Shown one piece after another: positions 49,879 through 63,032 of a stretch of DNA of 64,000 nt. The stretch covers positions 62,001 to 126,000 of the forward strand of contig NZ_QDDR01000006.1 in assembly GCF_003075525.1 (NCBI RefSeq). The letters are read 5' to 3'. This stretch comes from Pararhodobacter aggregans (GTDB lineage: Bacteria > Pseudomonadota > Alphaproteobacteria > Rhodobacterales > Rhodobacteraceae). The first letter of the stretch is position 1. Each line of letters starts with the position of its first letter. The notes beneath the pieces are model-generated. The model was not told the origin of the DNA. It saw only the letters and a list, made by a program, of their open reading frames with translations, and ran no database searches. Made by a program: the position numbers and the translations under genes.

Positions 49879-50925
49879 GTGAAGCTCAGCGATTTTGATT
49901 TTGACCTGCCCGAGGATCTGATCGCCACCCGGCCGATGAAGCCGCGCCCCGCCGCGCGGCTGCTGCTGGCCGAGGGGGACGCGATCGCCGACCGCCATGT
50001 CCGCGATCTGGTCGACATCCTGCGCCCCGGCGACCGGCTGGTCCTGAACAACACCCGCGTCATTCCCGCGCGCCTCTTCGGCGAGCGCCTGCGCGACACG
50101 AAGGACGGCTCGGGCCGGGCCAAGGTCGAGGTGACGCTTCTGAACCCCGAACCCTCGGGCGGGTGGCGGGTGCTGGCGCGGCCCCTGCGCAAGCTGGCCC
50201 CGGGCGACCGTCTGGACTTCGGGGCAGGGCTCACGGCCGTGGTGTCCGGCAAGGACGAGACCGAGGCGGTGCTGGCCTTCGACCTGACCGGCCCCGCCTT
50301 CGACGCCGCGCTGGAGGAAGCGGGCCGCATGCCGCTGCCGCCCTATATCGAAAGCCGCCGCCCGGCCGATGCCCAGGACCGCGAGGATTACCAGCCGGTT
50401 TTCGCCCGTGAGCGCGGCGCGGTGGCGGCGCCCACCGCCAGCCTGCATTTCGACCAGCCGCTGCTCGATGCCCTGCGCGCGATGGGTGTCGATTTCACCG
50501 AGGTGACGCTGCATGTCGGCGCCGGCACCTTCTTGCCGGTCAAGGTGGAAGACGTGACCACCCACCGCATGCACGCCGAATGGGGCGAGGTCACGCCCGA
50601 GGCGGCCGCGCAGATCAACGTGACGAAAGCCGCGGGCGGGCGGGTCATCCCGGTCGGCACCACGGCGCTCAGGCTGATCGAGAGTGCTGCGCGTTCCGGC
50701 CGGGTCGAGCCCTGGCGGGGCGAGACGGATATCTTCATCTACCCGGGTTTCACCTTCCACGCGGCGAACGGGCTGCTGACAAATTTCCACCTGCCGAAAT
50801 CTACGCTGCTGATGCTGGTCTCGGCGCTGATGGGGGCAGAGCGGATCCGCGCGATCTATGACCACGCGGTCACTGAGCGTTACCGCTTCTTCTCCTACGG
50901 CGACGCCTCGCTGCTGTTGCCTTAA
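49879..50925 (+). CDS. queA: S-adenosylmethionine:tRNA ribosyltransferase-isomerase
   Basis: Adds the epoxycyclopentanediol of queuosine to preQ1 at tRNA wobble G34. The 348-residue protein starts [19 protein letters not shown] and has [35 protein letters not shown] and [21 protein letters not shown] start at 49879 with AAGGA upstream. It is divergent from bcp, and its stop overlaps that of the next, convergent gene by 4 bp. tgt or other queuosine genes are not adjacent. Confidence 0.95.
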
Positions 50926-51911
50926 CCTTTTCGGTCGCGTGGCCGGGGGCGGGTCGGGATGTCCTTGAGCAGGCCCCCCACGCCCATGCCCCGGATATCG
51001 GCGCCCGTCACCGGCACGCCGCAGATCAGCCGCTCCAGCACCCAGTCGGCGCCGTTCAGCGCGGGCGAGCGGGCGCAGCCGGGCAGGCCCACCACCGGCA
51101 CGCCGTCCAGCGATCCGATGAACAACAGGTTGCCGGGATCGACCGGCATGCCGAAATGCTCGACCACACCGCCCGCGCGCCTGAGCGCCGAGGGCGCCAC
51201 GTCGCGGATATCCGAGGTGGCCGAGGCGGTGAGGATCAGGATCAGCGCGCCCCGGGCCTGCGCCAGCGACTCGGCCAGCGCGGTTTCGTCATGGGGAACA
51301 AGCACTTCCGGCCCGAGCTTCACACCCAGCCGCTGAAGTCGCTCCCCGGTGACGCGGTGGCCCTTGTCGCCCAGCCCGTCGCCGACCACGGTCTCGATCA
51401 TCACCGCGTCCGTCAGCACCGGCAGCGCCAGATCCAGCGCCCCGCGCCCGGCCTCGCAGGCGGCGGAAACGGACGTCTTCTCAAGCCCATAGGCGATGAT
51501 CTTCACGGTGGCGACCATGCCGCGCGGCTCCATCCGGTGCCATTCCGGCACCGTGGCGAGGGTGATCGCCGGATCCGCGTTGTTGACCGCCGCCACCTTC
51601 GCCGGGTCGATCCGGGCGATCCCGGCGCTCTTGGCCATGACATTGACCCGTCCGGTGCCGACCGGCTGCAAGTCCAGCCCCTGCGAGCCCGCCACCAGCG
51701 CCTCGGCCAGCGCCAGCGCCGCCGCATCCTCGCCCATGTCGTCGGGCCCAAGCCGCGCGGCGATCACCCGGTCGCGGCCCGCGTCGCGCAGGGCGGCGAT
51801 GTCGCCGGCGTCCAGCAGCTTGCCCTTCTTCAGCCGTCCGCCCGGCAGCGGCACCGAATGCGCCAGCACCGCCCCCAGCGCGTCCGAAAGGTCGACGGGC
51901 CCGAAGTCCAT
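50922..51911 (-). CDS. Molybdopterin-binding (MoeA/MogA-like) protein
   Basis: A 329-residue protein with a MogA/MoaB-like domain (about 165-300) that keeps the phosphate-loop-like [20 protein letters not shown] and [21 protein letters not shown]-terminal [18 protein letters not shown] resembles the MoeA N-terminal part. It lies directly after the XdhC gene (stop/start TGATG), so it probably helps insert or modify molybdenum cofactor for a hydroxylase. The ATG at 51911 is chosen over GTG one codon upstream. The stop overlaps that of queA (TTAA shared). Confidence 0.8.
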
Positions 51912-52888
51912 CACGCCTGTCTCAACACCTGCGTCACCTGCGCCAGCACCGAGACGGCGATCTCGGCCGGGGTCTTGGCGCCGATGTCGAGGCCCACGGG
52001 GGCGTGGATCCGGGCGATCTGCGCCTCGGTGATCCCCGCCGCGCGCAGCCGTTCCAGCCGCTTGGCATGGGTGCGGGTGGAGCCGAGGCAGCCCAGATAG
52101 AACACCTCGGACCCCAGCGCCGCGACGATCGCCGGATCGTCCAGCTTGGTGTCATGGGTCAGCGTCACAACGGCCGTGCGCGCATCCAGCCCCTCGGCCA
52201 GCAGCCCCTCATCCGGCCAGTCGTGGCGGATCACCGTGCCCGGAAAACGCCCCTCGCTGGCGAAGGCGTCGCGCGGGTCGATCAGCACCGGGTCATAGCC
52301 CGCGAGCTTGGCCATCGGCACCAGCGCCTGCGCGATATGCACGGCGCCGACGATCAGCATCCGGAGCGGCGGGTTGAAAAGGGCGATGAACTCGCCCGTT
52401 TCCTCCATGCCCGAGCGGTCGGCCCGGAACCTCTCCGGCAGGTCGGAGGGGCCCAGAAGCCGCCGCGCCCAGCCCTCGACCGTCACGCCATAGGCCAGCG
52501 GCTTGCGGGCCGCGCGGGCCTCGACCACGGCGGCCAGCATCGCCTCGGGCATGCCCTTGCCGATGGGTTCGACCAGCACCCGGATCGTGCCGCCGCAGGC
52601 CAGCCCCACCGAAAACGCCGTCTCGTCCGTCACGCCGAAGGTCAGGACCCGGGGCGTGCCGTCGGCCAAGGTTTCCAGCGCCTCGACCACCACCGCGCCC
52701 TCGACGCAACCGCCCGAGACCGAGCCCATGATCTCGCCCTCGCCGGAAATCGCCAGTTGCGAGCCGGGCTGGCGGGGGGCCGAGCCCCAGGTCTCGATCA
52801 CCGTGGCCAGCGCCGCGCCCTTGCCGGAGCGGTGCCAGTCGAGGGCGATTTCGGGGATGCGGTCGTGCTGCGGGGCGTCAGGCTGCAT
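51911..52888 (-). CDS. XdhC/CoxI-family molybdenum-hydroxylase maturation protein
   Basis: A 325-residue protein. The N-terminal XdhC domain has TWGSAPRQPGSQLAISGEGE, SVSGGCVEGAVVVEAL and ACGGTIRVLVEP; the C-terminal Rossmann domain has GAVHIAQALVPMAKLAGYD (nucleotide loop), VTLTHDTKLDDPA and YLGCLGSTRTHAKR. Such proteins protect and sulfurate molybdenum cofactor for xanthine or CO dehydrogenases. The start at 52888 (MQPDAPQ) has AGGAGG upstream. Together with coxDE nearby, it points to a molybdenum hydroxylase encoded elsewhere. Confidence 0.9.
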   Translation of the reverse strand: MQPDAPQHDRIPEIALDWHRSGKGAALATVIETWGSAPRQPGSQLAISGEGEIMGSVSGGCVEGAVVVEALETLADGTPRVLTFGVTDETAFSVGLACGGTIRVLVEPIGKGMPEAMLAAVVEARAARKPLAYGVTVEGWARRLLGPSDLPERFRADRSGMEETGEFIALFNPPLRMLIVGAVHIAQALVPMAKLAGYDPVLIDPRDAFASEGRFPGTVIRHDWPDEGLLAEGLDARTAVVTLTHDTKLDDPAIVAALGSEVFYLGCLGSTRTHAKRLERLRAAGITEAQIARIHAPVGLDIGAKTPAEIAVSVLAQVTQVLRQA

Positions 52889-52975
52889 TGGCGGGATCCT
52901 CCTGCTCCATACTATGCGGTCGGTTTCGGCCGAAGGCCAGCGCGACCTTTGGGGCAGGGCCGGGCAGGGCAACGG

Positions 52976-53026: not shown

Positions 53027-55087
53027 TCAGTTCGAGGCGACCTGCAGCAGCGGCGTGATGCGGCGGACCACCACGCGGCGGTTCTCGCGTTCCGCGGCCT
53101 CGGTGCGGATGCGCAGATCGCTTTCGCCATAGCCCTGCAGCACCATGTTCGCGGGCGAGACCCCGAAATATTCGGTCAGCGCCCGGGCCACCGATTCCGC
53201 GCGGCGGTCGGACAGCGTCAGGTTCATCACATCGCTGCCCACGGCGTCGGTGTGGCCCTCGATCAGGAACACCTCGTTCGGGTTCTCGGCGATCATGCTG
53301 GTCATCAGCTCGCCCAGCGCCAGCAGGTTGCGCGCCTCATCGGGAGAGATCGCCGCCGAGCCGGTGTCGAAGGTGATGTTCTGCACCTGCGCCGCCGGGG
53401 CCAGATAGCGCACCCGGTCGATCTGACGGATCTGGTTGAGCGAGAAGGCGCGGCCAACCGGCGCCTGGCTTTCCAGCGCCACGCGCAGCGCCCGTTCGTC
53501 CTGCGGATCCACCTGGCGCGGGGCCTGACGGTTGGGCTCGGGCAGATCGGCGATCACCACGGGCTCGTAGGTCTGGGTGTCGTCGAAGAGGATGGTACGC
53601 GAGCCATCGGGGTGGATCACCACGCGCTTGACCACGCGGGCCTCGGCGTTGCGCACCGTCACCACCTGGCTGCCGTCGCGTTGCAGGACCACGGTTTCCG
53701 ACGAGCCGTCCGAATAGCGGCGGGTCGTGACCTCGCTGCCCGGCTGGCGCAGGATCGCGTCATCGTCGCGCAGGACCTGCAGATGGCCGTTGCGGTCGCG
53801 CACCACCACGCGGTCGGGCGAGGTGCCGACAACCTCGCGGTTGTCATTGAGCAACGCGCCGACGACCAGCGCCCCGGCGGCACCGACCAGCGCGCCTTGC
53901 AGGAAGCGGTTGAAATTGTCGTCTTCCTGCTGGCCCTGGGCCTGCTGGGCCGCGGCCTCGCCCTCGGGGGCGGCGGTGGTGTCGGTGCGGGCGTAATCCT
54001 CGGACGAGAGGCGGGCGTTGTCCTCGGTCACCGTCTCGGTGCTTTCCTCGACCACGTCACCGGCTTCGGTGGCGGCGAGCGGCGCCTCGGCTTCGCCGGT
54101 CGCGGCTTCGGCCGCGGCGTCCGAGGGTTCGGTCGGGATCACGTCCTGTTCGGTCTCGGCGGTGGCCTCGGCCTCGTCCGAGCCGCCGCCCAGCGCGTTG
54201 ACGATCCGGTCGAGCGTCGAGGGCTCTTCCTCGGTCGCGGTCTCGGCGGTCGCGTCAGGCGCGGTTTCACCCTCGGTCGTGGCGTCTTCGGTGGTCGCTT
54301 CGGTGGTCGCTTCGGTCTGGGCCTCGCCCTCGGCCGTCGCCTCCTCGTCCGAGCCGCCGCCCAGCGCGTTCACGATGCGGTCGAGGGTCGAGGGTTCTTC
54401 CTCGGCGGTCGCGTCAGGCGCGGCTTCGGTGGTGGCTTCGGTGGTGGCTTCCGCCTGGGGTCGCGGATCGACCGGGGTTTCGGCCTGGACCTCGGCCTGC
54501 GGCGCGACCGGCGTTTCGGCGGGGGCCTGAGCCTCGGCCTGCGGCGCGGTCTCGGGCACGGCCTCTACGGGCGCCTCGGCCTGAGCCTCGGCGGGAATTT
54601 CGGGCTGCACCTCGGCGGGGGCTTCCGCCTGTGCTTCGGGTTGTGCCTCGACGGGGGTTTCGGCCGGCGCTTCGGCCTGAACCTCGGGCTGGGCTTCCGG
54701 CTGGGCCTCGACCGGGGCCTCGGCTTGCGCTTCGGGTTGCAGCGCATCGGCGGGCGCTTCGCCCTGGACGGCGCCGCCCAGCTGTTCGGTCAGCGTCTCG
54801 AGCGAGGGCGCGCTGCCTTCGACAGTCGCACCCACATCGGCCTCCGGCGCGGCTTCCGCTTCGGCTTGCGGCTGCGCGTCTTCCTCGGCCTCGGCGTTGC
54901 CGCCCTGAGCCTGGCTGGCCTCGGACACGGCGACGTTGCATTCGTCCTGCGTCATGGCGTCGGTGCAGACCTCGGCCTGGATGTCCGCCCGGCTGCGGCC
55001 CTCCTGGGCCATTGCCGGGAAGGTCACGGGCACGGCCAGCGCGAAGCTGGTGACCAGCGCGGTCGTCGTCTTAAGGGGGCGTCGCAT
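53027..55087 (-). CDS. Large OmpA-family protein with Ala/Glu/Pro-rich region
   Basis: A 686-residue secreted protein. Signal peptide 1-27 (VPVTFPAMAQ), then a low-complexity region (about 60-400) rich in PEAQAEAP, TTEATTE and TAEEEPSTLDRIVNALGGGS. The last segment occurs twice, 57 residues apart (171-bp tandem duplication at 54180/54351). One hydrophobic stretch (FLQGALVGAAGALVVGALL, about 400-420) precedes a C-terminal OmpA domain (about 570-680) with VFLIEGHTDAVGSDVMNLTL and LSDRRAESVARALTEYFGV. It probably binds peptidoglycan with the OmpA domain and reaches the surface or wall. The start at 55087 is set by the signal peptide. Confidence 0.87.
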   Translation of the reverse strand: MRRPLKTTTALVTSFALAVPVTFPAMAQEGRSRADIQAEVCTDAMTQDECNVAVSEASQAQGGNAEAEEDAQPQAEAEAAPEADVGATVEGSAPSLETLTEQLGGAVQGEAPADALQPEAQAEAPVEAQPEAQPEVQAEAPAETPVEAQPEAQAEAPAEVQPEIPAEAQAEAPVEAVPETAPQAEAQAPAETPVAPQAEVQAETPVDPRPQAEATTEATTEAAPDATAEEEPSTLDRIVNALGGGSDEEATAEGEAQTEATTEATTEDATTEGETAPDATAETATEEEPSTLDRIVNALGGGSDEAEATAETEQDVIPTEPSDAAAEAATGEAEAPLAATEAGDVVEESTETVTEDNARLSSEDYARTDTTAAPEGEAAAQQAQGQQEDDNFNRFLQGALVGAAGALVVGALLNDNREVVGTSPDRVVVRDRNGHLQVLRDDDAILRQPGSEVTTRRYSDGSSETVVLQRDGSQVVTVRNAEARVVKRVVIHPDGSRTILFDDTQTYEPVVIADLPEPNRQAPRQVDPQDERALRVALESQAPVGRAFSLNQIRQIDRVRYLAPAAQVQNITFDTGSAAISPDEARNLLALGELMTSMIAENPNEVFLIEGHTDAVGSDVMNLTLSDRRAESVARALTEYFGVSPANMVLQGYGESDLRIRTEAAERENRRVVVRRITPLLQVASN

Positions 55088-55445: not shown

Positions 55446-56705
55446 TCAGCCGTTCAGCATCGCCATCAGCCGCGCCTTCTCGCCCCGGTCGCGCGGATCC
55501 GACAGCGCCTCGGCCAAAGCCTCAAGCGAGGCGATGGAATGCCCGGCCCTCAGCGTGTCGACATGCGGCAGCATGGCCCGCACGCCCTGCGCGCGCGGCG
55601 CGAACCCGTCCCAGCGCAGAAGCGGGTTCAGCCAGATGAGCCGCCGGGCCGAAAGGTGCAGGCGCTCCATCTCCTTGGTCAGCAGCGCCGGATCGTCGCG
55701 GTCAAGCCCGTCCGTAATCAGCAGCACCACCGCCCCCTGACCCAGCACCCGGCGCGACCAGTCGCGGTTGAAGTCGTGCAGGCAGGCGCCGATCCGGGTG
55801 CCGCCCTGCCAGTCCCGCGCCTCGTGCCCGGCCGCGTTGAGCGCGGCGTCCACGTCGCGGGTCGCCAGATGCCGGGTGATGTTGGTCAGCCTTGTGCCGA
55901 AGGTGAAGGCATGGACCCGGGCCCAACCCTGGCCCTGCCGGTTGGCGACGGCATGGACGAAATGCAGCACCATCCGCGAATAGGAGGCCATGGAGCCCGA
56001 GATATCGCAGAGCACGACCAGCGCCGGCCAGCGCGTCGCGGGCTTGCGGCGGGCCAGCGTCAGCACCTCGCCGCCGGTGCGCATCGCGCCCCTGAGCGTG
56101 CGGCGCCAGTCAGGGCGGGAGCCGAGCGGATCGGCGGTCAGGCGGCGGGTTTTCAGGGGCTTCACCGGCAGCGAGAGGCGGGCCAGCATCCGCCGGGCCG
56201 CTGCCGCCTCCTCGGCATTCATCTGCTCGAAATCGAGGGCGCGCAGCTTTTCCTCGGCCGAGGCGGTGAAGCTCGCGTCGATCTCGATCAGCGCGTCCTC
56301 GTCCTCGTCCTCGTCCCGGGCGGGCGGGGCGGGCGGTTCGGCCCCGTCAAGCAGCGCCTCGGCCGCGCGCTTGGCGGCGGAGGCCGCGCGCTCTTCCTCC
56401 TGCACCCCGCGCACGGCGGGCAGGAGCAGCGCCATCATATGCTCCATGTAGCGCGGATCGCGCCAGAAGAGGCGAAAGACCTGATGAAAGACCTGCCTCT
56501 CCTCAGGCCGCGAGACGAAGACCGCGTGCAGGGTCCAGTAGAAATCCTCGCGCCGGGAAAAGCCCGCGGCGCGCACCGCCTCGATGGCGGTCAGCACCCG
56601 GCCGGGGCCGACCGGCAGCCCGGCCTTCCGCAGCGCGCGGGCGAAATGCGTCAGATTCGCCGTGAGCTTGGGGTCGTCGGGCAGGGGCAGCGCGGGCTCG
56701 GCCAA
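55446..56705 (-). CDS. coxE: CoxE-like vWA-domain protein
   Basis: A 419-residue protein related to CoxE, which acts with the CoxD AAA+ ATPase in maturing the active site of CO-dehydrogenase-type enzymes. The N-terminal LPDDPKLTANLTHFARALRK and the C-terminal vWA domain (about 215-419; VVLCDISGSMASYSRMVLHF with the MIDAS DxSxS, VVLLITDGLDRDD) are typical; a DEDEDED acidic stretch lies between. The start is uncertain. A TTG at 56705 is where similarity begins; the first ATG upstream is at 56777, but that extension would translate the dispersed repeat at 56731-56782. Confidence 0.85.
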   Translation of the reverse strand: MAEPALPLPDDPKLTANLTHFARALRKAGLPVGPGRVLTAIEAVRAAGFSRREDFYWTLHAVFVSRPEERQVFHQVFRLFWRDPRYMEHMMALLLPAVRGVQEEERAASAAKRAAEALLDGAEPPAPPARDEDEDEDALIEIDASFTASAEEKLRALDFEQMNAEEAAAARRMLARLSLPVKPLKTRRLTADPLGSRPDWRRTLRGAMRTGGEVLTLARRKPATRWPALVVLCDISGSMASYSRMVLHFVHAVANRQGQGWARVHAFTFGTRLTNITRHLATRDVDAALNAAGHEARDWQGGTRIGACLHDFNRDWSRRVLGQGAVVLLITDGLDRDDPALLTKEMERLHLSARRLIWLNPLLRWDGFAPRAQGVRAMLPHVDTLRAGHSIASLEALAEALSDPRDRGEKARLMAMLNG

Positions 56706-56730
56706 TCTTGCGTCTCGCTTTTGGCGGCGC

Positions 56731-56782
56731 CCGGGGGTTTCACACCCCCGGACCCCCGTGGGATATTTGGGGCGCAAAGATC
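56731..56782. repeat. Dispersed GGATATT repeat between coxD and coxE
   Basis: Hairpin CCGGGGGT-TTCAC-ACCCCCGG (56731-56751), then ACCCCCGTGGGATATTTGGG and GCGCAAAGA. It overlaps the coxD stop region (stop at 56781-56783) and lies before coxE, so the two genes are separated by the repeat instead of being coupled. Confidence 0.75.
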
Positions 56783-57692
56783 ACGCGGTTTCGAGGGCTT
56801 TCTTGGCGTCGTCCAGCAGGCGCTTGGCCTCGGAGCCCTGCAGGCGGGCGATGTCGTCCTGATACTTGAGGATCGCGCCCAATGTGTCGGCGATCACCTC
56901 GGGGCTGAGGGCAATCACGTCGAGGGCGAGGAGGCATTTGGCCCAGTCGATGGTTTCCGCCACGCCCGGGCGCTTGAACAGATCCTCGCCCCGCAGGCGC
57001 TGGACGAAGGCCACCACCTCGCGGCTGAGCCCGGCGGCGGCCTCGGGGACGCGGGCCTGCAGGATCTCGGTCTCGCGGGCGAAAGTCGGGTAGTCGACCC
57101 AATGGTAGAGGCAGCGGCGCTTGAGCGCGTCATGCACTTCGCGCGTGCGGTTCGAGGTGAGGATGACGATCGGCGGCTCGGGCGCCTTGATGGTGCCGAG
57201 TTCGGGGATCGTCACCTGGAAATCGCCGAGCGCTTCCAGCAGGAAGGCCTCGAAGGGTTCGTCCGTGCGGTCGATCTCGTCGATCAGGAGGACGGGCGCG
57301 CCGCCGTCCTGCGGGCGCATGGCCTGCAGGAGCGGGCGCTCGATCAGATACTCGGGGCCGAAGAGGTCGGTGCGCAGGCTCTCGGCGCCGGTGCCGGTGG
57401 CTTCGGCGGCGCGGATCGCCACCATCTGCGCGGCGAAGTTCCATTCATAGACGGCCGAGGCCGCATCCAGCCCTTCGTAGCATTGCAGGCGGATCAGGCG
57501 ACGGCCCAGCGCGGCGGCGATGGCCTTGGCGATCTCGGTCTTGCCGGTGCCGGCCTCGCCTTCCAGAAACAGCGGCCGGCCGAGTTTCAGGGCGAGGAAG
57601 GTGACGGTGGCGAGCGAGCGCCCGCAGATGTAGTTCTGGCCGGCCAGCATGTCCTGAACGGCGTCAATGCTGGCGATGTCGCGATGGCTCAC
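56781..57692 (-). CDS. coxD: CoxD/MoxR-family AAA+ ATPase
   Basis: A 303-residue ATPase: Walker A GEAGTGKTEIAKAIA (about 44-58), Walker B PVLLIDEIDRTDEPFEAFLL and sensor 1 VILTSNRTREVHDALKRRC. CoxD with CoxE is needed to build the Cu-S-Mo site of CO dehydrogenase in carboxidotrophs; homologues occur where no CO dehydrogenase is known. GTG start at 57692 with GGAGG upstream. Its stop falls inside the dispersed repeat. The structural coxMSL genes are not in the window. Confidence 0.9.
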   Translation of the reverse strand: MSHRDIASIDAVQDMLAGQNYICGRSLATVTFLALKLGRPLFLEGEAGTGKTEIAKAIAAALGRRLIRLQCYEGLDAASAVYEWNFAAQMVAIRAAEATGTGAESLRTDLFGPEYLIERPLLQAMRPQDGGAPVLLIDEIDRTDEPFEAFLLEALGDFQVTIPELGTIKAPEPPIVILTSNRTREVHDALKRRCLYHWVDYPTFARETEILQARVPEAAAGLSREVVAFVQRLRGEDLFKRPGVAETIDWAKCLLALDVIALSPEVIADTLGAILKYQDDIARLQGSEAKRLLDDAKKALETA

Positions 57693-57784: not shown

Positions 57785-59977
57785 TCAGTCGCGGCGCGCG
57801 GCAGAGGCGACGAAGCGTTGCAGGAGCCCGGTGTCGAGGGGTTTGTAGAGCAGCGGCACCCCGGCGCGGAGCGCGCGCAGCCGCAGCGGTTCGGCGCGGG
57901 TCGCGGTCAGCAGGCGCGCGGGCAGGGGGCCATGGCGGCGGGAAAGGTCCTGCATCAGGGCAAGGCCCGCTTCCTCGTCCCCGGCGCGGGCGTCGATCAG
58001 CACGAAATCGGGCGGCAGGCCGATTTCCTCGATCAGCGCCAGCGCCTCGGCCGGGTCGGGTACGTCGAGGATATTGACGCCCCAGCCGTCCAGCAGATGC
58101 GTCAGCGCGCGGCGCATGTCGCTGTCGGCGGCGACCAGCAGGCCGATCAGGTCGCGCGGCAGGTCGGGGCGGGGGACGGGCGGCGCGGGCGGCGCGGCGG
58201 CGGGGGCCTCGGCCGGGGGGCCCAGATGCAGGACGAAGCGCGAGCCGCGGCCCAGGCGGGAATCGAGCGTCACCGCGTGGCCCAGCAGCGCCGAGGCGCG
58301 CTCGACGATGGCGAGGCCGAGGCCCATCCCCTCGGACGCCGAGGCGCGGGCGTTGAGGCGGTGGAACTCGCGGAAGATCGCCTCGCGGTCGGCCTCGGGG
58401 ATGCCGGGGCCGGTGTCGGTGACCTCGGCCCGGATCCCGGCGGCGGTATGGCGCACGCCGACCAGCACCCCGCCCCGGTCGGTGTAGCGGATCGCATTGC
58501 CGATCAGGTTCTGCAGGATGCGCCGCAGCCAGGTCGGGTCCGAGACGACCACGGCACCGGTCGGGCGCAGGCGCAGGCTGAGGCCCCTGTCGGCCGCCAC
58601 CGGGGCGAATTCCTCGGCCAGACGGGCCAGCAGCGGACCCAGCGGCACGGGCTGGGGGCGTACCGAGAGCCGCCCGCTTTCCAGCCGCGAGATGTCGAGC
58701 AGCGCGTCGAGGATCGTCTCGACCGATTGCAGGGCCGAGCGGGTCTTGCCCAGCGCGTCCAGCGCGCGGGGGTTCAGATCCTCGTCCTCCATCGAGGCGA
58801 GGAACAGCTTGGCGGCCGAGAGCGGTTGCAGCAGGTCGTGGCTGGCGGCGGCGACGAAGCGCGAGCGGGTGGCATTGGCGCGCTCGGCATGGGCCAGCGC
58901 CTCGCCCAGTTCCAGCGTGCGGGCGGCGACGCGGGCTTCCAGCGTCTCGTTGGCGCGCGACAGCCCGGCGATGGCCCGGCGTTCGGCGGTGACATCGGTG
59001 AAGGAGATGACGAAACCGCCGTCCGGCATCTCCTGCGCGAAGGCATCGAGCACCACGCCCCCTTCGCGCGTCACCTCGAAGCGCAGCGGCTGGCGCGGTG
59101 TCGGCCCCGCGACCCAGGCGCGCAACCCCTCGAAGCGCAGCGAGCCGGGCGAGAGGCGCCCGGCCAGATCGTCGAAGGCAAGGCCGGGGCGGAAACGGGT
59201 GCGGTTCACGGCCAGCAATTCGGCGGCGCGTTCGTTCCAGCCGATCATCCGCGCCTCGGCATCGAAGATGCAGACGCCCTGGCTGATATGGTCAAGCGTC
59301 GCCCGCACGATCCGCGCCTGATCGTCCAGAAGTCGCCCGCGGGCCTCGCGTTCGGCGCGGATGATGTCGGTGACATCGGTCTGCAGGATCACCGTGCCGC
59401 CATCGCCGGTGCGATGCTCGCTGACCTGCAGCCAGCGGTCGCCCCTCAGCGCCACGGTGAAGTTGGTCGAGCGGTCGCGGTGGCGCCTGAGGCGCAGCAC
59501 GGCCCAATCCTGGGCGCTGACCCCCTCGGGCAGGGACAGCTGGCCCGAGCCGCTGACCAGCTCGACATAGCGGGCGAAGCTGAGGCCCGGGACCAGCGCC
59601 GGCTGGATGTCGCTCAGCTGCAGGCCGAAGCGCGAATTGCACATGACCAGCACGTCGTCGGGCCCAAAAAGGCCGAAGCCCTCCTGCACCGTCTCGATGG
59701 CATCGGCGAGGTTGCGGCGCGCGGCCTCGGTCTCGCGGTTGGCGGCGGCGAGGCGGGCGTTCGACTGGTTCAGAAGGTCCAGCGCCGCCTCCAGCTCGCG
59801 GGTGCGGGCGCGGACCTGTTCCTCCAGCATCGCCGCGCGCTCGAACTGGGCATAGGCGGCACCCGACAGGTCCGTGCCCTGCTCGACCCGGCGCATCAGC
59901 ACCTCGACGATCTGCAGGAGCTTGTCGGTCTGCCGGGCCGGGCTGTCCTCGGGGTTCAGAAGGCTGCGCGGGCTCAC
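57785..59977 (-). CDS. PAS-domain hybrid histidine kinase with receiver (NahK-like)
   Basis: A 730-residue sensor kinase without transmembrane helices. Layout: helical N-terminus (1-90), PAS domains (about 90-215 and 225-345), dimerisation and phospho-acceptor H-box FVAAASHDLLQPLSAAKLFL (His about 380), HATPase (about 480-600, LIGNAIRYTDRGG and GMGLGLAIVERASAL), and a C-terminal receiver (about 610-728; FVLIDARAG with candidate Asp about 662, LYKPLD with Lys). The H-box AASHDLLQPL is the NahK/PAS_7 type. GTG start overlaps the FIST gene stop by 4 bp (GTGA), the arrangement of NosP-NahK pairs. Confidence 0.9.
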   Translation of the reverse strand: MSPRSLLNPEDSPARQTDKLLQIVEVLMRRVEQGTDLSGAAYAQFERAAMLEEQVRARTRELEAALDLLNQSNARLAAANRETEAARRNLADAIETVQEGFGLFGPDDVLVMCNSRFGLQLSDIQPALVPGLSFARYVELVSGSGQLSLPEGVSAQDWAVLRLRRHRDRSTNFTVALRGDRWLQVSEHRTGDGGTVILQTDVTDIIRAEREARGRLLDDQARIVRATLDHISQGVCIFDAEARMIGWNERAAELLAVNRTRFRPGLAFDDLAGRLSPGSLRFEGLRAWVAGPTPRQPLRFEVTREGGVVLDAFAQEMPDGGFVISFTDVTAERRAIAGLSRANETLEARVAARTLELGEALAHAERANATRSRFVAAASHDLLQPLSAAKLFLASMEDEDLNPRALDALGKTRSALQSVETILDALLDISRLESGRLSVRPQPVPLGPLLARLAEEFAPVAADRGLSLRLRPTGAVVVSDPTWLRRILQNLIGNAIRYTDRGGVLVGVRHTAAGIRAEVTDTGPGIPEADREAIFREFHRLNARASASEGMGLGLAIVERASALLGHAVTLDSRLGRGSRFVLHLGPPAEAPAAAPPAPPVPRPDLPRDLIGLLVAADSDMRRALTHLLDGWGVNILDVPDPAEALALIEEIGLPPDFVLIDARAGDEEAGLALMQDLSRRHGPLPARLLTATRAEPLRLRALRAGVPLLYKPLDTGLLQRFVASAARRD

Positions 59978-61113
59978 GGGGCCGCTCCGGGCGGATAGAG
60001 GGCGACGCCGGTCAGGGTCTGGTTCACATGCATGGCGTTCAGCTGTTCGCCATAGGTGGAAAAGCCGGTCACGCCATGGTCACGCAAGAGGGTCGAGATG
60101 CGGCCGGTCAGCTGCTTTTCCTGCGCCTCCATCCGGCGCAGCACGCAATCGCAGGCCAGGATCGCCGCGGGGCGCTGGGCGCCGGTCAGCCCGGCCAGCG
60201 CCCCCGCCAGATGATCGGCCATGTCGAGGGGTTCGGCCAGCGTCAGCACCAGCCCCTCGTCAATGGCGGAATAGAAGATCAGATCGCCATTCTCGTCCAC
60301 CTGCCGGATCGAGCGGACATGGTGGCGCCCGCCGACGCGCACCACGACCGGATGGGCGGCGAAGGTGAAGGGGGTCAGCTGGCCCGGGTCCTTGCCCAGC
60401 AGCCGGGCATATTCGCGGGCGGCGGGTTCGGCGTTGATCGCCTGCACCGTGCGGCGGGCGGGATCGGCGCGGGTCACCACCATGCGGGTATCGGTCGGGC
60501 GGAAATGGTCGAATTTGAAGACCTTGACCGGACAAGCGGTGCGCAGGATCGTCACCACGGCCGCGTTGCGCAAGGCCTTGCCGCCATGGAAGACGAAGGT
60601 CTCCAGAAACCGCGTCCCGTCCGCCGCCGAGCCGCCGAACAGCGGCGTGGCGCCGAGGCCGGGGGAGAGGAGCGAGGCCAGCTCGTCCTCCTTGGCCGAG
60701 AGGCCGTCGACCAGCAGGTAGACGAATTCATGCTCCCAATCGGGGTGGCTGCGGGCCAGCGCGCCGCGGGCCCGGATCAGGTCGCCGATCACCGCCTGCG
60801 CGTCGAGCGACGACAGGTCCGGGATCAGCAGCGGTTCGGCGGCGAAATGGGCGGCGGGGAAGGCGGCGGCCACGATCATCCCCTCGGCGTAACCCTGCGC
60901 CGCGATCTCGCCCGCGGTGGTGCAGCCGATCACCGGCGCCGGGGCCAGGTCGCGCGAAAGGGCGCGCACCAGACGCTCGCGTTCCGGGGCGCGCGGCGAG
61001 ACGAAGACCACCACCAGCGCGAAGGGGCCCGGACCCAGCGACCGCGCCAGCGTCGCCGCCGCCTGCGGGTCGTCGGCCGGGGTCTCGGCCACGCGCATCA
61101 CCTCAGGGGCCAT
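59974..61113 (-). CDS. FIST-domain sensor protein (NosP-like)
   Basis: A 379-residue protein with FIST N (about 15-210) and FIST C (about 220-365) domains: VVVFVSPRAPERERLVRALS, CTTAGEIAAQGYAEGMIVAA, PLFGGSAADGTRFLETFVFH, and FSTYGEQLNAMHVNQTLTGV. FIST proteins sense small ligands; NosP members bind heme and sense NO and sit next to a hybrid kinase, as here. The start at 61113 has GGAGG upstream. No heme ligand can be assigned by eye. Confidence 0.85.
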   Translation of the reverse strand: MAPEVMRVAETPADDPQAAATLARSLGPGPFALVVVFVSPRAPERERLVRALSRDLAPAPVIGCTTAGEIAAQGYAEGMIVAAAFPAAHFAAEPLLIPDLSSLDAQAVIGDLIRARGALARSHPDWEHEFVYLLVDGLSAKEDELASLLSPGLGATPLFGGSAADGTRFLETFVFHGGKALRNAAVVTILRTACPVKVFKFDHFRPTDTRMVVTRADPARRTVQAINAEPAAREYARLLGKDPGQLTPFTFAAHPVVVRVGGRHHVRSIRQVDENGDLIFYSAIDEGLVLTLAEPLDMADHLAGALAGLTGAQRPAAILACDCVLRRMEAQEKQLTGRISTLLRDHGVTGFSTYGEQLNAMHVNQTLTGVALYPPGAAP

Positions 61114-61184: not shown

Positions 61185-61934
61185 CTATCGCAGCAGCCGC
61201 GCGGCCAGCCCCGGGGACAGGCGGTTGACGAGGCGCAGCAGCCTGGCCTTGCCGACCCAGATCTCGGCCTGTCCCCGCTCCAGCCCCGCCAGCACCGCGG
61301 CGGCCGCCTGCGCCGGGGTGATCTTGCCCGATCCGCGCCCCTCGGTCATGTCGGTGGCGACCAGCGACATGATTGCCTCGCTGATCTGGAGATGCGGCGC
61401 GGCGCGCTGGCATTGATAGCGCAGCGCCCGGGTGAACGAGCGCGCCGCCGCCTTGGTCGCGCCATAGACCGGCGAGGCAGCCTTGGGCGCTATGGCGAGG
61501 CCCGAGGTGACGGTGACGATCGCCGCCCGTTCCTGCCGGGCGAGGACCGGCAGCAGGCCCAGCGTCAGGGCGACGACCGCGTCGAGGTTGGTGGCGATCT
61601 CCTGCCGGGCGAATTCGGTGGCCTGCGCCGGGGGCAGGGCGAAGAGGTCCATCTCCACCTGCACCCCGGCATTGTTGATCAGCAGGTCGATGTCGGGATG
61701 CTCGCGGGTCAGATCGGCGACGAGGGTATCGACCTCGGCCCGCGAGGACAGATCCGCGCGCCGGGTGACGACCGCACCGGGAAAGGCCTGTTCCAGCGCT
61801 GCAAGATGGCTCTGGCTCTGCCCGACGGCGATGACCCGGCAACCGCGCGCCACAAGCTGACGGGTCAGCTCAAGCCCGATGCCGCGCGCGCCGCCGGTGA
61901 CCAGCGCGGTTCGGCCGTGAAGCGCCGGGCTCAT
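61185..61934 (-). CDS. Short-chain dehydrogenase/reductase
   Basis: A 249-residue classical SDR: cofactor loop TGGARGIGLELTRQL (about 13-27), NNAGVQ (about 90), catalytic Ser in VTSGLA and the YGATK motif (Tyr about 154, Lys 158). The C-terminal extension (ARLLRLVNRLSPGLAARLLR) is hydrophobic and amphipathic and may touch membrane. Its ATG overlaps the darcynin-like stop by 4 bp (ATGA). Substrate unknown. It is repressed, by position, by the divergent TetR. Confidence 0.9.
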   Translation of the reverse strand: MSPALHGRTALVTGGARGIGLELTRQLVARGCRVIAVGQSQSHLAALEQAFPGAVVTRRADLSSRAEVDTLVADLTREHPDIDLLINNAGVQVEMDLFALPPAQATEFARQEIATNLDAVVALTLGLLPVLARQERAAIVTVTSGLAIAPKAASPVYGATKAAARSFTRALRYQCQRAAPHLQISEAIMSLVATDMTEGRGSGKITPAQAAAAVLAGLERGQAEIWVGKARLLRLVNRLSPGLAARLLR

Positions 61935-62260
61935 GCCGCCGCCTCCTCCTGCTGGAACAGGCGAAAGCCGTTTTCCAGCGCGGGCGTGATCGACACCACC
62001 TCGAAATAGGGGGCCGAGATCAGCGGCGTGTTCCGCAGCCGCTCCATGGTGAAATAGTACGCCAGCATGTCCGAGGTTTCGAACACCGCGATATCCGAGG
62101 CCGCGCCGCTGAAGGCCTCGGCGTCGTAGAAACGCATCGTCACGCGGTCATCGACCAGCGCCAGGGCCAGGCACTCGGCGGCGATCGTGTCGCGCTGGGC
62201 GGGCGGCAGGCTTAGCCAGGCGGGGGTGGCGCGCAGATGCACGAAAATGGTCCAGGTCAT
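61931..62260 (-). CDS. Darcynin-family protein
   Basis: A 109-residue protein that resembles the darcynin family: MTWTIFVHLRATPAWLSLPP, VTMRFYDAEAFSGAASDIAV and YFEVVSITPALENGF match what I recall of that domain. Function is unknown for the family. The start at 62260 is where the pattern begins. It heads a two-gene operon with the SDR and is divergent from TetR, with an operator-like palindrome between. Confidence 0.72.
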   Translation of the reverse strand: MTWTIFVHLRATPAWLSLPPAQRDTIAAECLALALVDDRVTMRFYDAEAFSGAASDIAVFETSDMLAYYFTMERLRNTPLISAPYFEVVSITPALENGFRLFQQEEAAA

Positions 62261-62305
62261 GTCTTGTGTCCTCGGGTTGCCTTGGCGGGTGCGATGGGCA
62301 AAGAA

Positions 62306-62319
62306 TGAGCAATCGCTCA
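62306..62319. promoter_or_regulatory. TetR-type operator between darcynin-like and tetR genes
   Basis: TGAGC and GCTCA arms around AATC. It is in the 88-bp gap between the divergent genes, 46 bp from the darcynin start and 29 bp from the TetR start. It fits a site that shuts both promoters. Confidence 0.6.
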
Positions 62320-62348
62320 GGTTTCTCAACTCGCATCCGGAGGCGCCG

Positions 62349-63032
62349 ATGTCGGGTCCGATTGTGCCAAGAAAAACGCCCCGGCAGGCCCGGGCGCGGG
62401 CCACCGTCGAGGCGATTCTGGAAGCGGCGGCTCGCATTCTGGTGGCCGAAGGGCTGGAGCGGCTGACCACCAACCGCGTGGCTGAGGTGGCGGGGATCAG
62501 CATCGGCACGCTCTATCAATACTTCCCGTCCAAGGAGGCGATCCTGGCCGAGATCCTGCGGGCCAAGCGGCAGCAGCTTCTGGAGGATATCCGGGCCGCG
62601 ACCGCCGAGGGGACGGGACAGGGTTTCGAGGCGCGGCTCTCGGGTTTGATCGAGGCGGCGATTGTCCATCAGCTCGGGCAACCGACGCTGGCGCGATCGC
62701 TCGAGTATCTGGACAGCCTGTTGCCGCTGGAAGCCGAGACCCAGGCCCTGAAGGCGGCGATCCTGGAGCGGGTGTCGGGGTTTCTGGCACGGGGCGGCAT
62801 CGCGCGGCCCGAAGAGAGCGCCCGCGATCTGGTGGCGGCGCTGAGGGGCATGATCGACGCCGCCGGGCTGGCGGGCGAGACGGACCGCGAGGCGCTCTTC
62901 CGGCGCGCGATGCGGCTCGTCCGGGGCTATCTGGGGCTGGAAGGGAGCGGTTTCGCCCTCGACCGCGACGCCTCCGGCGCCGAGCTCTCGGGCGACGAGC
63001 CGGGGGGCATTCTGCCCCCCGGACCCCCCTGA
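62349..63032 (+). CDS. TetR/AcrR-family transcriptional regulator
   Basis: A 227-residue repressor. HTH: ATVEAILEAAARILVAEGLE, then VAEVAGISIGTLYQYFPSK (about residues 18-63), the usual TetR pattern with a GTLYQYF recognition helix. The start at 62349 (MSGPIVPRKTPRQAR) lies just past the operator; a frame upstream to 62187 overlaps the darcynin gene. The last ten or so residues (DEPGGILPPGPP) and the stop come from the dispersed repeat at 63001-63056. It probably controls the divergent darcynin-SDR operon. Confidence 0.9.
   Translation: MSGPIVPRKTPRQARARATVEAILEAAARILVAEGLERLTTNRVAEVAGISIGTLYQYFPSKEAILAEILRAKRQQLLEDIRAATAEGTGQGFEARLSGLIEAAIVHQLGQPTLARSLEYLDSLLPLEAETQALKAAILERVSGFLARGGIARPEESARDLVAALRGMIDAAGLAGETDREALFRRAMRLVRGYLGLEGSGFALDRDASGAELSGDEPGGILPPGPP

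Follow-up and report, generated by a model that had tools for sequence, protein, structure and literature searches.

Here we describe a two-gene sensory locus of Pararhodobacter aggregans (Rhodobacteraceae) and the conserved response regulator-FIST-kinase triad to which it appears to belong. The locus lies within a stretch of 64,000 nucleotides (the window; contig NZ_QDDR01000006.1, positions 62,001 to 126,000), on the minus strand of which a nosP-like FIST gene runs from an ATG at 61113, with the Shine-Dalgarno sequence GGAGG 5 nt 5' of it, to a stop at 59976-59974, and is followed by the gene of a hybrid histidine kinase, from a GTG at 59977 to a stop that ends at 57785 (Table 1). An earlier note, made from the sequence alone, had pointed out a 4 bp overlap of the FIST gene with a PAS hybrid kinase and a NahK-type H-box, AASHDLLQPL, in the latter, and had proposed a nitric oxide (NO) pathway matching NosP/NahK. 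Both observations are borne out, the overlap being the GTGA at 59977-59974 and the H-box beginning at kinase residue 377, with His380 as the predicted phospho-acceptor.

The FIST protein has the full-length architecture of the NosP type, with FIST_N at residues 33-229 (E 3.8e-44) and FIST_C at residues 231-358 (E 7.3e-23), and is encoded beside a NahK-type kinase. Its sole NCBIfam match is NosP (NF041558, residues 14-372, E 2.3e-111), at 372.4 bits against a curated cut-off of 450, and the best NCBIfam matches of the kinase are the NahK/ErcS' models NF041831 (E 1.4e-100, 337.6 against 1500 bits) and NF041832 (E 2.1e-92, 310.1 against 400 bits). The profile search suggested by the earlier note thus names NosP and NahK/ErcS' as the best matches, with every score below its curated cut-off; by sequence the window pair is a divergent pair of the NosP/NahK type, for which the proposed kinship is right at family level. 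Among 218 genomes of the family, sampled at one per genus, a NosP-type FIST protein (E 1e-40) occurs in 84 and none reaches the curated cut-off, which 25 of the 398 genomes of a phylum sample do. The 5.08 Mb genome of P. aggregans has this single FIST match (profile search, E 0.001), and the nearest loci in named records belong to an unclassified metagenome-assembled genome (96% identity) and to Pararhodobacter zhoushanensis (79%). FIST proteins on Sinorhizobium fredii megaplasmids (H1-H6) are 61-62% identical to that of the window and so nearer to it than many of the family's own copies, which may be a case of transfer.

In an alignment of 181 NosP-type rows, in which some genes stand twice having been fetched from two sources, Cys323 and His362 are invariant, Cys64 is kept in 180 rows and His203, a candidate heme ligand, in 173. 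Because four distant FIST proteins keep Cys323 and His362 and not Cys64 or His203 (the latter being Gly in all four), Cys64 and His203 seem to be marks of the NosP type, and the window protein has both. The AlphaFold2 model of the protein (mean pLDDT 82, with residues 329-331 and 356-361 under 50) finds its best fold match in human FBXO22, which extends over almost all of the model (Z 16.9-18.4, with 249-262 residues aligned) and differs in being a ubiquitin-ligase subunit of 12-13% identity that is found by fold and not by sequence. The matched part of FBXO22 is known as a FIST domain. The next fold matches are 'Toblerone'-type enzymes and chorismatase (Z 10-12), and sequence searches of the PDB with the FIST protein, profile A2 and a distant FIST protein gave no meaningful match, FBXO22 included.

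Pfam recognises PAS_7 (two stretches), HisKA (371-435), HATPase_c (480-585) and Response_reg (614-719) in the kinase, and the His380 column is histidine in every aligned kinase row that covers it, L177 being without coverage. A NahK-like kinase on the same strand, starting no more than 700 bp from the FIST stop, accompanies 92 of the 97 FIST loci in the family genomes, so the pairing is beyond chance; four of the other five have a NahK-like frame outside this distance rule and L234 has none in the fetched piece. The linked loci divide into 72 of type A, in which the kinase is at least 45% identical to that of the window, and 20 of type B, which is more distant. After type B pairs (L114-L116, L173, L185, L199 and others) comes a small conserved protein, which in some has a signal-peptide-like start.

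The earlier note saw no other partner gene, which is true locally, but a likely partner lies on another contig. For a less redundant sample, 60 type A loci were taken with up to 20 kb of sequence each (59 genomes, one of which gave two loci; picked mainly for the highest NosP scores, with two very short contigs skipped). Among these, a NarL/LuxR-type response regulator stands directly upstream of nosP in 58, the exceptions being L280, which stops at a contig edge, and L288, which has no regulator. The same position is occupied in 27 of 38 named loci, and the regulator is seen in the ~5 kb pieces of 68/72 type A and 20/20 type B loci; among NCBIfam models it matches ErdR best, below cut-off. 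The genome of P. aggregans encodes a 62% identical regulator on contig C14 (the next best is only 36% identical), 173 bp from a divergent coxG, an arrangement that matches the order coxL<coxS<coxG<regulator>nosP>kinase of relatives. The cluster of L309 reads mogA-xdhC-coxE-coxD-coxL-coxS-coxG and then regulator-nosP-kinase (CoxM was not sought there), and the P. aggregans genome looks like a scattered version of such a cluster, with FIST-kinase-coxD-coxE-xdhC-mogA in the window, the regulator and coxG on C14, and coxSLM on contig C2. The sequences indicate a conserved response regulator-FIST-kinase triad of which the regulator has been relocated in this genome, and the conclusion of the earlier note is to that extent incomplete.

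The surroundings of the triad point to control of aldehyde or alcohol oxidation. With pyrroloquinoline quinone (PQQ) alcohol-oxidation genes defined as PQQ-dependent alcohol dehydrogenase, PedF or PqqB, and cox genes as cox G, S or L, 23 of the 60 family triads lie near the former, 21 near the latter, 3 near both and 13 near neither, giving totals of 26 and 24; of the 38 named loci, 33 have at least one of coxD, E, G, S and L nearby. Annotated plasmids of P. pantotrophus, Ruegeria and Paracoccus sp. carry triads near a PQQ methanol/ethanol dehydrogenase, and in SC52 the triad adjoins pedF. The CoxL proteins of the own genome (L241:7771-10206, contig C2) and of L056 carry the motif AYRGAGR, which marks form II (PMC13240472, in the part available). 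The own CoxL scores 645 bits with the glyceraldehyde dehydrogenase alpha model against 630 with carbon monoxide (CO) dehydrogenase, both below cut-off; no PQQ-dependent alcohol dehydrogenase above cut-off is found in the own genome, the matches to that family being weak.

The pathway had also been proposed to end in the in-line receiver of the kinase. Output through this domain is unlikely on sequence grounds, because the acidic pair of the receiver is lost here and several relatives have a dead receiver or none. The Response_reg match is weak (31.7 bits, cut-off 30.2), and where the acidic pocket reads E-[NDPS]-[DE] in 29 of the 33 named rows with a receiver and [DE]-[ND]-[DE] in 18 additional rows, most of them more distant, the window kinase has A-A-D. 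Four rows of the Pararhodobacter clade (L030-L033) read A-E-D, and the loss is not quite unique, since L170 of the wider kinase set reads I-S-D. A sequencing error was considered as the source of A-A-D and is unlikely, the codon being two bases off that of the nearest relative (GAA to GCC). The kinases L057, L064, L066 and L188 end without a receiver and have no remnant downstream, and the acceptor Asp is missing from the receivers of L192 and L218; L036 and L164, which meet contig ends, and L065 and L177, with shorter or split frames, are excluded from these losses. Identity to the window also falls faster in the receiver than over residues 1-215, at 28% against 64% in L117.

We put at about even chances the reading that the pair forms the sensory half of a triad that tunes aldehyde or alcohol oxidation through the distant response regulator. 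A small reactive signal would bind the FIST protein, the signal-bound form would alter autophosphorylation of the kinase on His380, and the kinase would pass the phosphate directly to the NarL/LuxR-type regulator encoded on C14, which would in turn control transcription of aldehyde or alcohol oxidation genes. In this lineage the targets would be the cox genes of form II, which belong to a molybdenum hydroxylase, and elsewhere in the family the regulator would act on cox or PQQ genes.

The systems AfdRTS, RfdRTS and FlhR-orf2-FlhS of the Rhodobacterales are most likely of the same kind as this triad. As set out in the accessible portion of PMC4776306, afdT lies between afdR and afdS and rfdT between rfdR and rfdS in Rhodobacter sphaeroides, orf2 lies between flhR and flhS in Paracoccus denitrificans, the systems govern formaldehyde metabolism, their middle genes have no clear role there, and the way in which AfdRS and RfdRS sense formaldehyde is described as unknown. 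Their order, regulator, middle gene and kinase, is that of the triad, which is together in 58/60 family loci and split in the genome of the window, where the regulator is separate; the likeness is one of gene position. Because the FIST gene sits where these middle genes do, and because the label 'GfdT' is attached to FIST genes, namely that in CP049031 and, in the portion of PMC12997753 available, P. putida PP_2663, the T genes (afdT, rfdT and orf2) are likely to be FIST proteins.

The closest relatives by profile are NosP-NahK of Pseudomonas aeruginosa (PA1975-PA1976; ErcS'), likewise an adjoining FIST gene and hybrid kinase with the same type of H-box. Unlike that pair, the one in the window scores below the cut-offs, has lost the acidic pair of its receiver, has its response regulator on another contig, and lies near cox and not PQQ genes. 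FIST, kinase and response regulator are also combined in NosP-NosK-NosR of Burkholderia pseudomallei (PMC12570481) and NosP-NahK-NarR of Legionella pneumophila (PMC11237717), where the regulators, as the parts of these papers at hand describe them, have an output of the cyclic di-GMP (c-di-GMP) type, whereas here the regulator is of the DNA-binding LuxR type. In the open-licence literature, no paper was found on NosP together with carbon monoxide dehydrogenase or on a FIST domain with a histidine kinase in Rhodobacterales; among the matches listed, one paper was on the subject of the afd/rfd/gfd/Flh regulators and, judged by title, only a review of ped on that of NosP with formaldehyde.

Several observations weigh against control of aldehyde or alcohol oxidation through the distant regulator. 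The identification of the T genes as FIST proteins, likely as it is, draws on gene position and the 'GfdT' label. In the rfdT mutant, adhI expression with formaldehyde was unchanged (PMC4776306, as far as the available text goes). The likeness to FBXO22 is one of fold and not of sequence, and the regulator is separated from the FIST-kinase pair in this very genome. Neither cox nor PQQ genes lie within ~9 kb of the 13 triads mentioned above. The in-line receiver is usually maintained, 119 of 130 kinase rows (some genes again being present twice, from two sources) retaining the Asp together with one or both acids of the pair.

The signal itself may be an aldehyde rather than NO, and we slightly favour an aldehyde-linked one, which fits both the neighbourhoods and the afd and flh systems. 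In the accessible text of PMC11208438, Cys326 of FBXO22 is covalently modified by aldehydes. A bolder version, which we hold to be fairly unlikely, is that the FIST proteins of the triads are aldehyde sensors in which Cys323, possibly the counterpart of Cys326, captures formaldehyde or another aldehyde, that they are the missing sensor of AfdRS, RfdRS and FlhRS, and that the form II 'CO dehydrogenase' adjoined by many of the triads is an aldehyde-oxidising enzyme of the regulon.

Classical NO sensing, with a heme-NO FIST protein controlling the kinase as in NosP/NahK and the alcohol/aldehyde neighbourhood secondary, is the strongest rival, and one that we regard as somewhat unlikely. The full-length NosP profile match, the family kinship and the kept His203 speak for it, and NO may arise inside the cell, as the genome encodes a copper nitrite reductase that scores above cut-off. 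PA1975/PA1976 and their P. putida homologues also cluster with LuxR-type agmR/erbR and PQQ-alcohol oxidation genes (PMC12997753, in part). Both proteins fall short of the NosP and NahK cut-offs, however, the genome already has a separate H-NOX beside a GGDEF gene, the setting of the relatives is alcohol and aldehyde oxidation, and the heme ligand is only a candidate.

A phosphorelay like NahK-HptB-HsbR, from the in-line receiver through a stand-alone histidine phosphotransfer (Hpt) protein to an RbaY-type REC-SpoIIE phosphatase, is quite unlikely. In the relay of P. aeruginosa, HptB passes the signal on to HsbR. The preceding step, from NahK to HptB, is described in the part of PMC11784011 available, and which kinase acts upstream of RbaY was not known in 2014 according to the text of PMC3999984 at hand. 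In the own genome an Hpt gene and an RbaY-like REC-SpoIIE gene diverge from each other (L027:23-1770), the same adjacency is seen in 28 of the 30 fetched loci, own included (L027, L118-L147), and Hpt occurs in 76/84 NosP-positive against 84/134 NosP-negative genomes (Fisher 3.5e-6, uncorrected for kinship or genome size). Those same 84 genomes with Hpt and no NosP count against the relay, as does the conservation of a dedicated response regulator instead, and it is because of the state of the receiver, which here retains Asp662 without the acidic pair and in some relatives is dead or lacking altogether, that an Hpt-RbaY output is kept as a rival only.

That the neighbourhood arose by accident, the triad being a two-component system of a generic kind that happens to lie near cox or PQQ genes, we consider very unlikely. 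The loci with neither context would suit it, as would the FIST tree, on which the context (cox, PQQ or neither; labels typed by hand and unlabelled loci left out) switches at least 13 times, with many weak branches; so would the weak contrast within the ~5 kb pieces, where CoxG is found in 8/72 type A and PQQ-dependent alcohol dehydrogenase in 1/72, against 0/20 type B for each. On the other hand, a piece of up to 20 kb is ~0.5% of a genome, and by our own arithmetic ten gene copies per genome would place ~3 of 60 loci near one by chance, against the 24 and 26 observed; none of these cox or PQQ genes was found in 30 Hpt control loci of ~3.3 kb. The linkage moreover outlives relocation, the regulator being with coxG on one contig and the FIST-kinase pair with coxDE on another.

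Heme sensors can bind CO, and the triad is linked to cox genes. Sensing of CO by a heme-FIST protein that induces the cox genes is nevertheless most unlikely, since the linked CoxL is form II, whose physiological substrate is said to be something other than CO (PMC6794299, in the passages available), and triads are about as often near PQQ-alcohol-oxidation genes as near cox genes.

For the reading centred on aldehyde or alcohol oxidation, the consequences reach beyond this locus. The middle gene of the AfdRS and RfdRS systems appears to be a NosP-family FIST protein, which bears on how formaldehyde is sensed, and NosP-like proteins may sense more than NO. The activity of form II CO dehydrogenase is described as unresolved, or CO as not its physiological substrate, in the accessible parts of PMC13240472 and PMC6794299; because a sensor triad is common to many form II clusters and PQQ-alcohol dehydrogenase clusters, an aldehyde substrate is suggested. 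Both formaldehyde sensing by AfdRS/RfdRS and the role of the form II enzymes thereby become directly testable.

Table 1. Features of the FIST-kinase locus and its neighbourhood (window coordinates).
Feature	Position	Strand	Basis or remarks
nosP-like FIST gene, FIST_N + FIST_C, 379 aa	59974..61113	-	Pfam, NCBIfam
Codon of His203, candidate heme ligand	60505..60507	-	Alignment
Codon of Cys323	60145..60147	-	181/181 rows, alignment
GTGA overlap (4 bp), FIST stop / kinase start	59974..59977	-	Sequence
nahK/ercS'-like hybrid histidine kinase, PAS-PAS-HisKA-HATPase-REC, 730 aa, GTG start	57785..59977	-	Pfam, NCBIfam
Codon of His380, predicted phospho-acceptor in H-box AASHDLLQPL	58838..58840	-	Alignment
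In-line receiver	57821..58138	-	Keeps Asp662, Thr691 and Lys712; Ala616-Ala617 in place of the acidic pair
coxD-like AAA ATPase, directly downstream of kinase	56781..57692	-	Pfam AAA_5; NCBIfam MadB_ATPase below cut-off
coxE-like VWA protein	55446..56777	-	Pfam VWA_CoxE 2.9e-66
xdhC/coxI-like molybdoenzyme maturation factor	51911..52972	-	Profile search
Molybdopterin-binding (MoCF_biosynth-like) protein	50922..51914	-	Weak: 24.9 bits, cut-off 26.6

Of the genes downstream of the kinase, the coxD-like one also adjoins the pair in 9 other loci, the xdhC-like one comes after coxE in L034 and L035, and the MoCF_biosynth-like one adjoins xdhC in L034, L035, L293 and L309. The best NCBIfam model of the XdhC-like protein is an aldehyde-oxidoreductase maturation factor, below cut-off (180 against 350 bits). 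An identity of the AAA and VWA genes as gas-vesicle genes, or as NorQ and NorD of NO reductase, was set aside, as relatives place both in cox clusters. Between the coxE-like and xdhC-like genes lies that of an OmpA-family protein with a long Ala/Glu/Gln-rich stretch (53027-55087, minus strand), and upstream of the FIST gene a Darcynin-domain gene (61931-62509, minus strand) overlaps a short-chain dehydrogenase/reductase gene.

Elsewhere in the genome, the H-NOX gene on contig C1 (L029:1498-3170) shares 4 bp with a GGDEF gene that matches HNOBA weakly, making this pair a second, separate candidate NO/c-di-GMP system. The Hpt gene divergent from the RbaY-like gene may provide an input to Rba partner switching, and a second small Hpt gene stands directly before a sigma54-type response regulator gene (L028:1390-3161).

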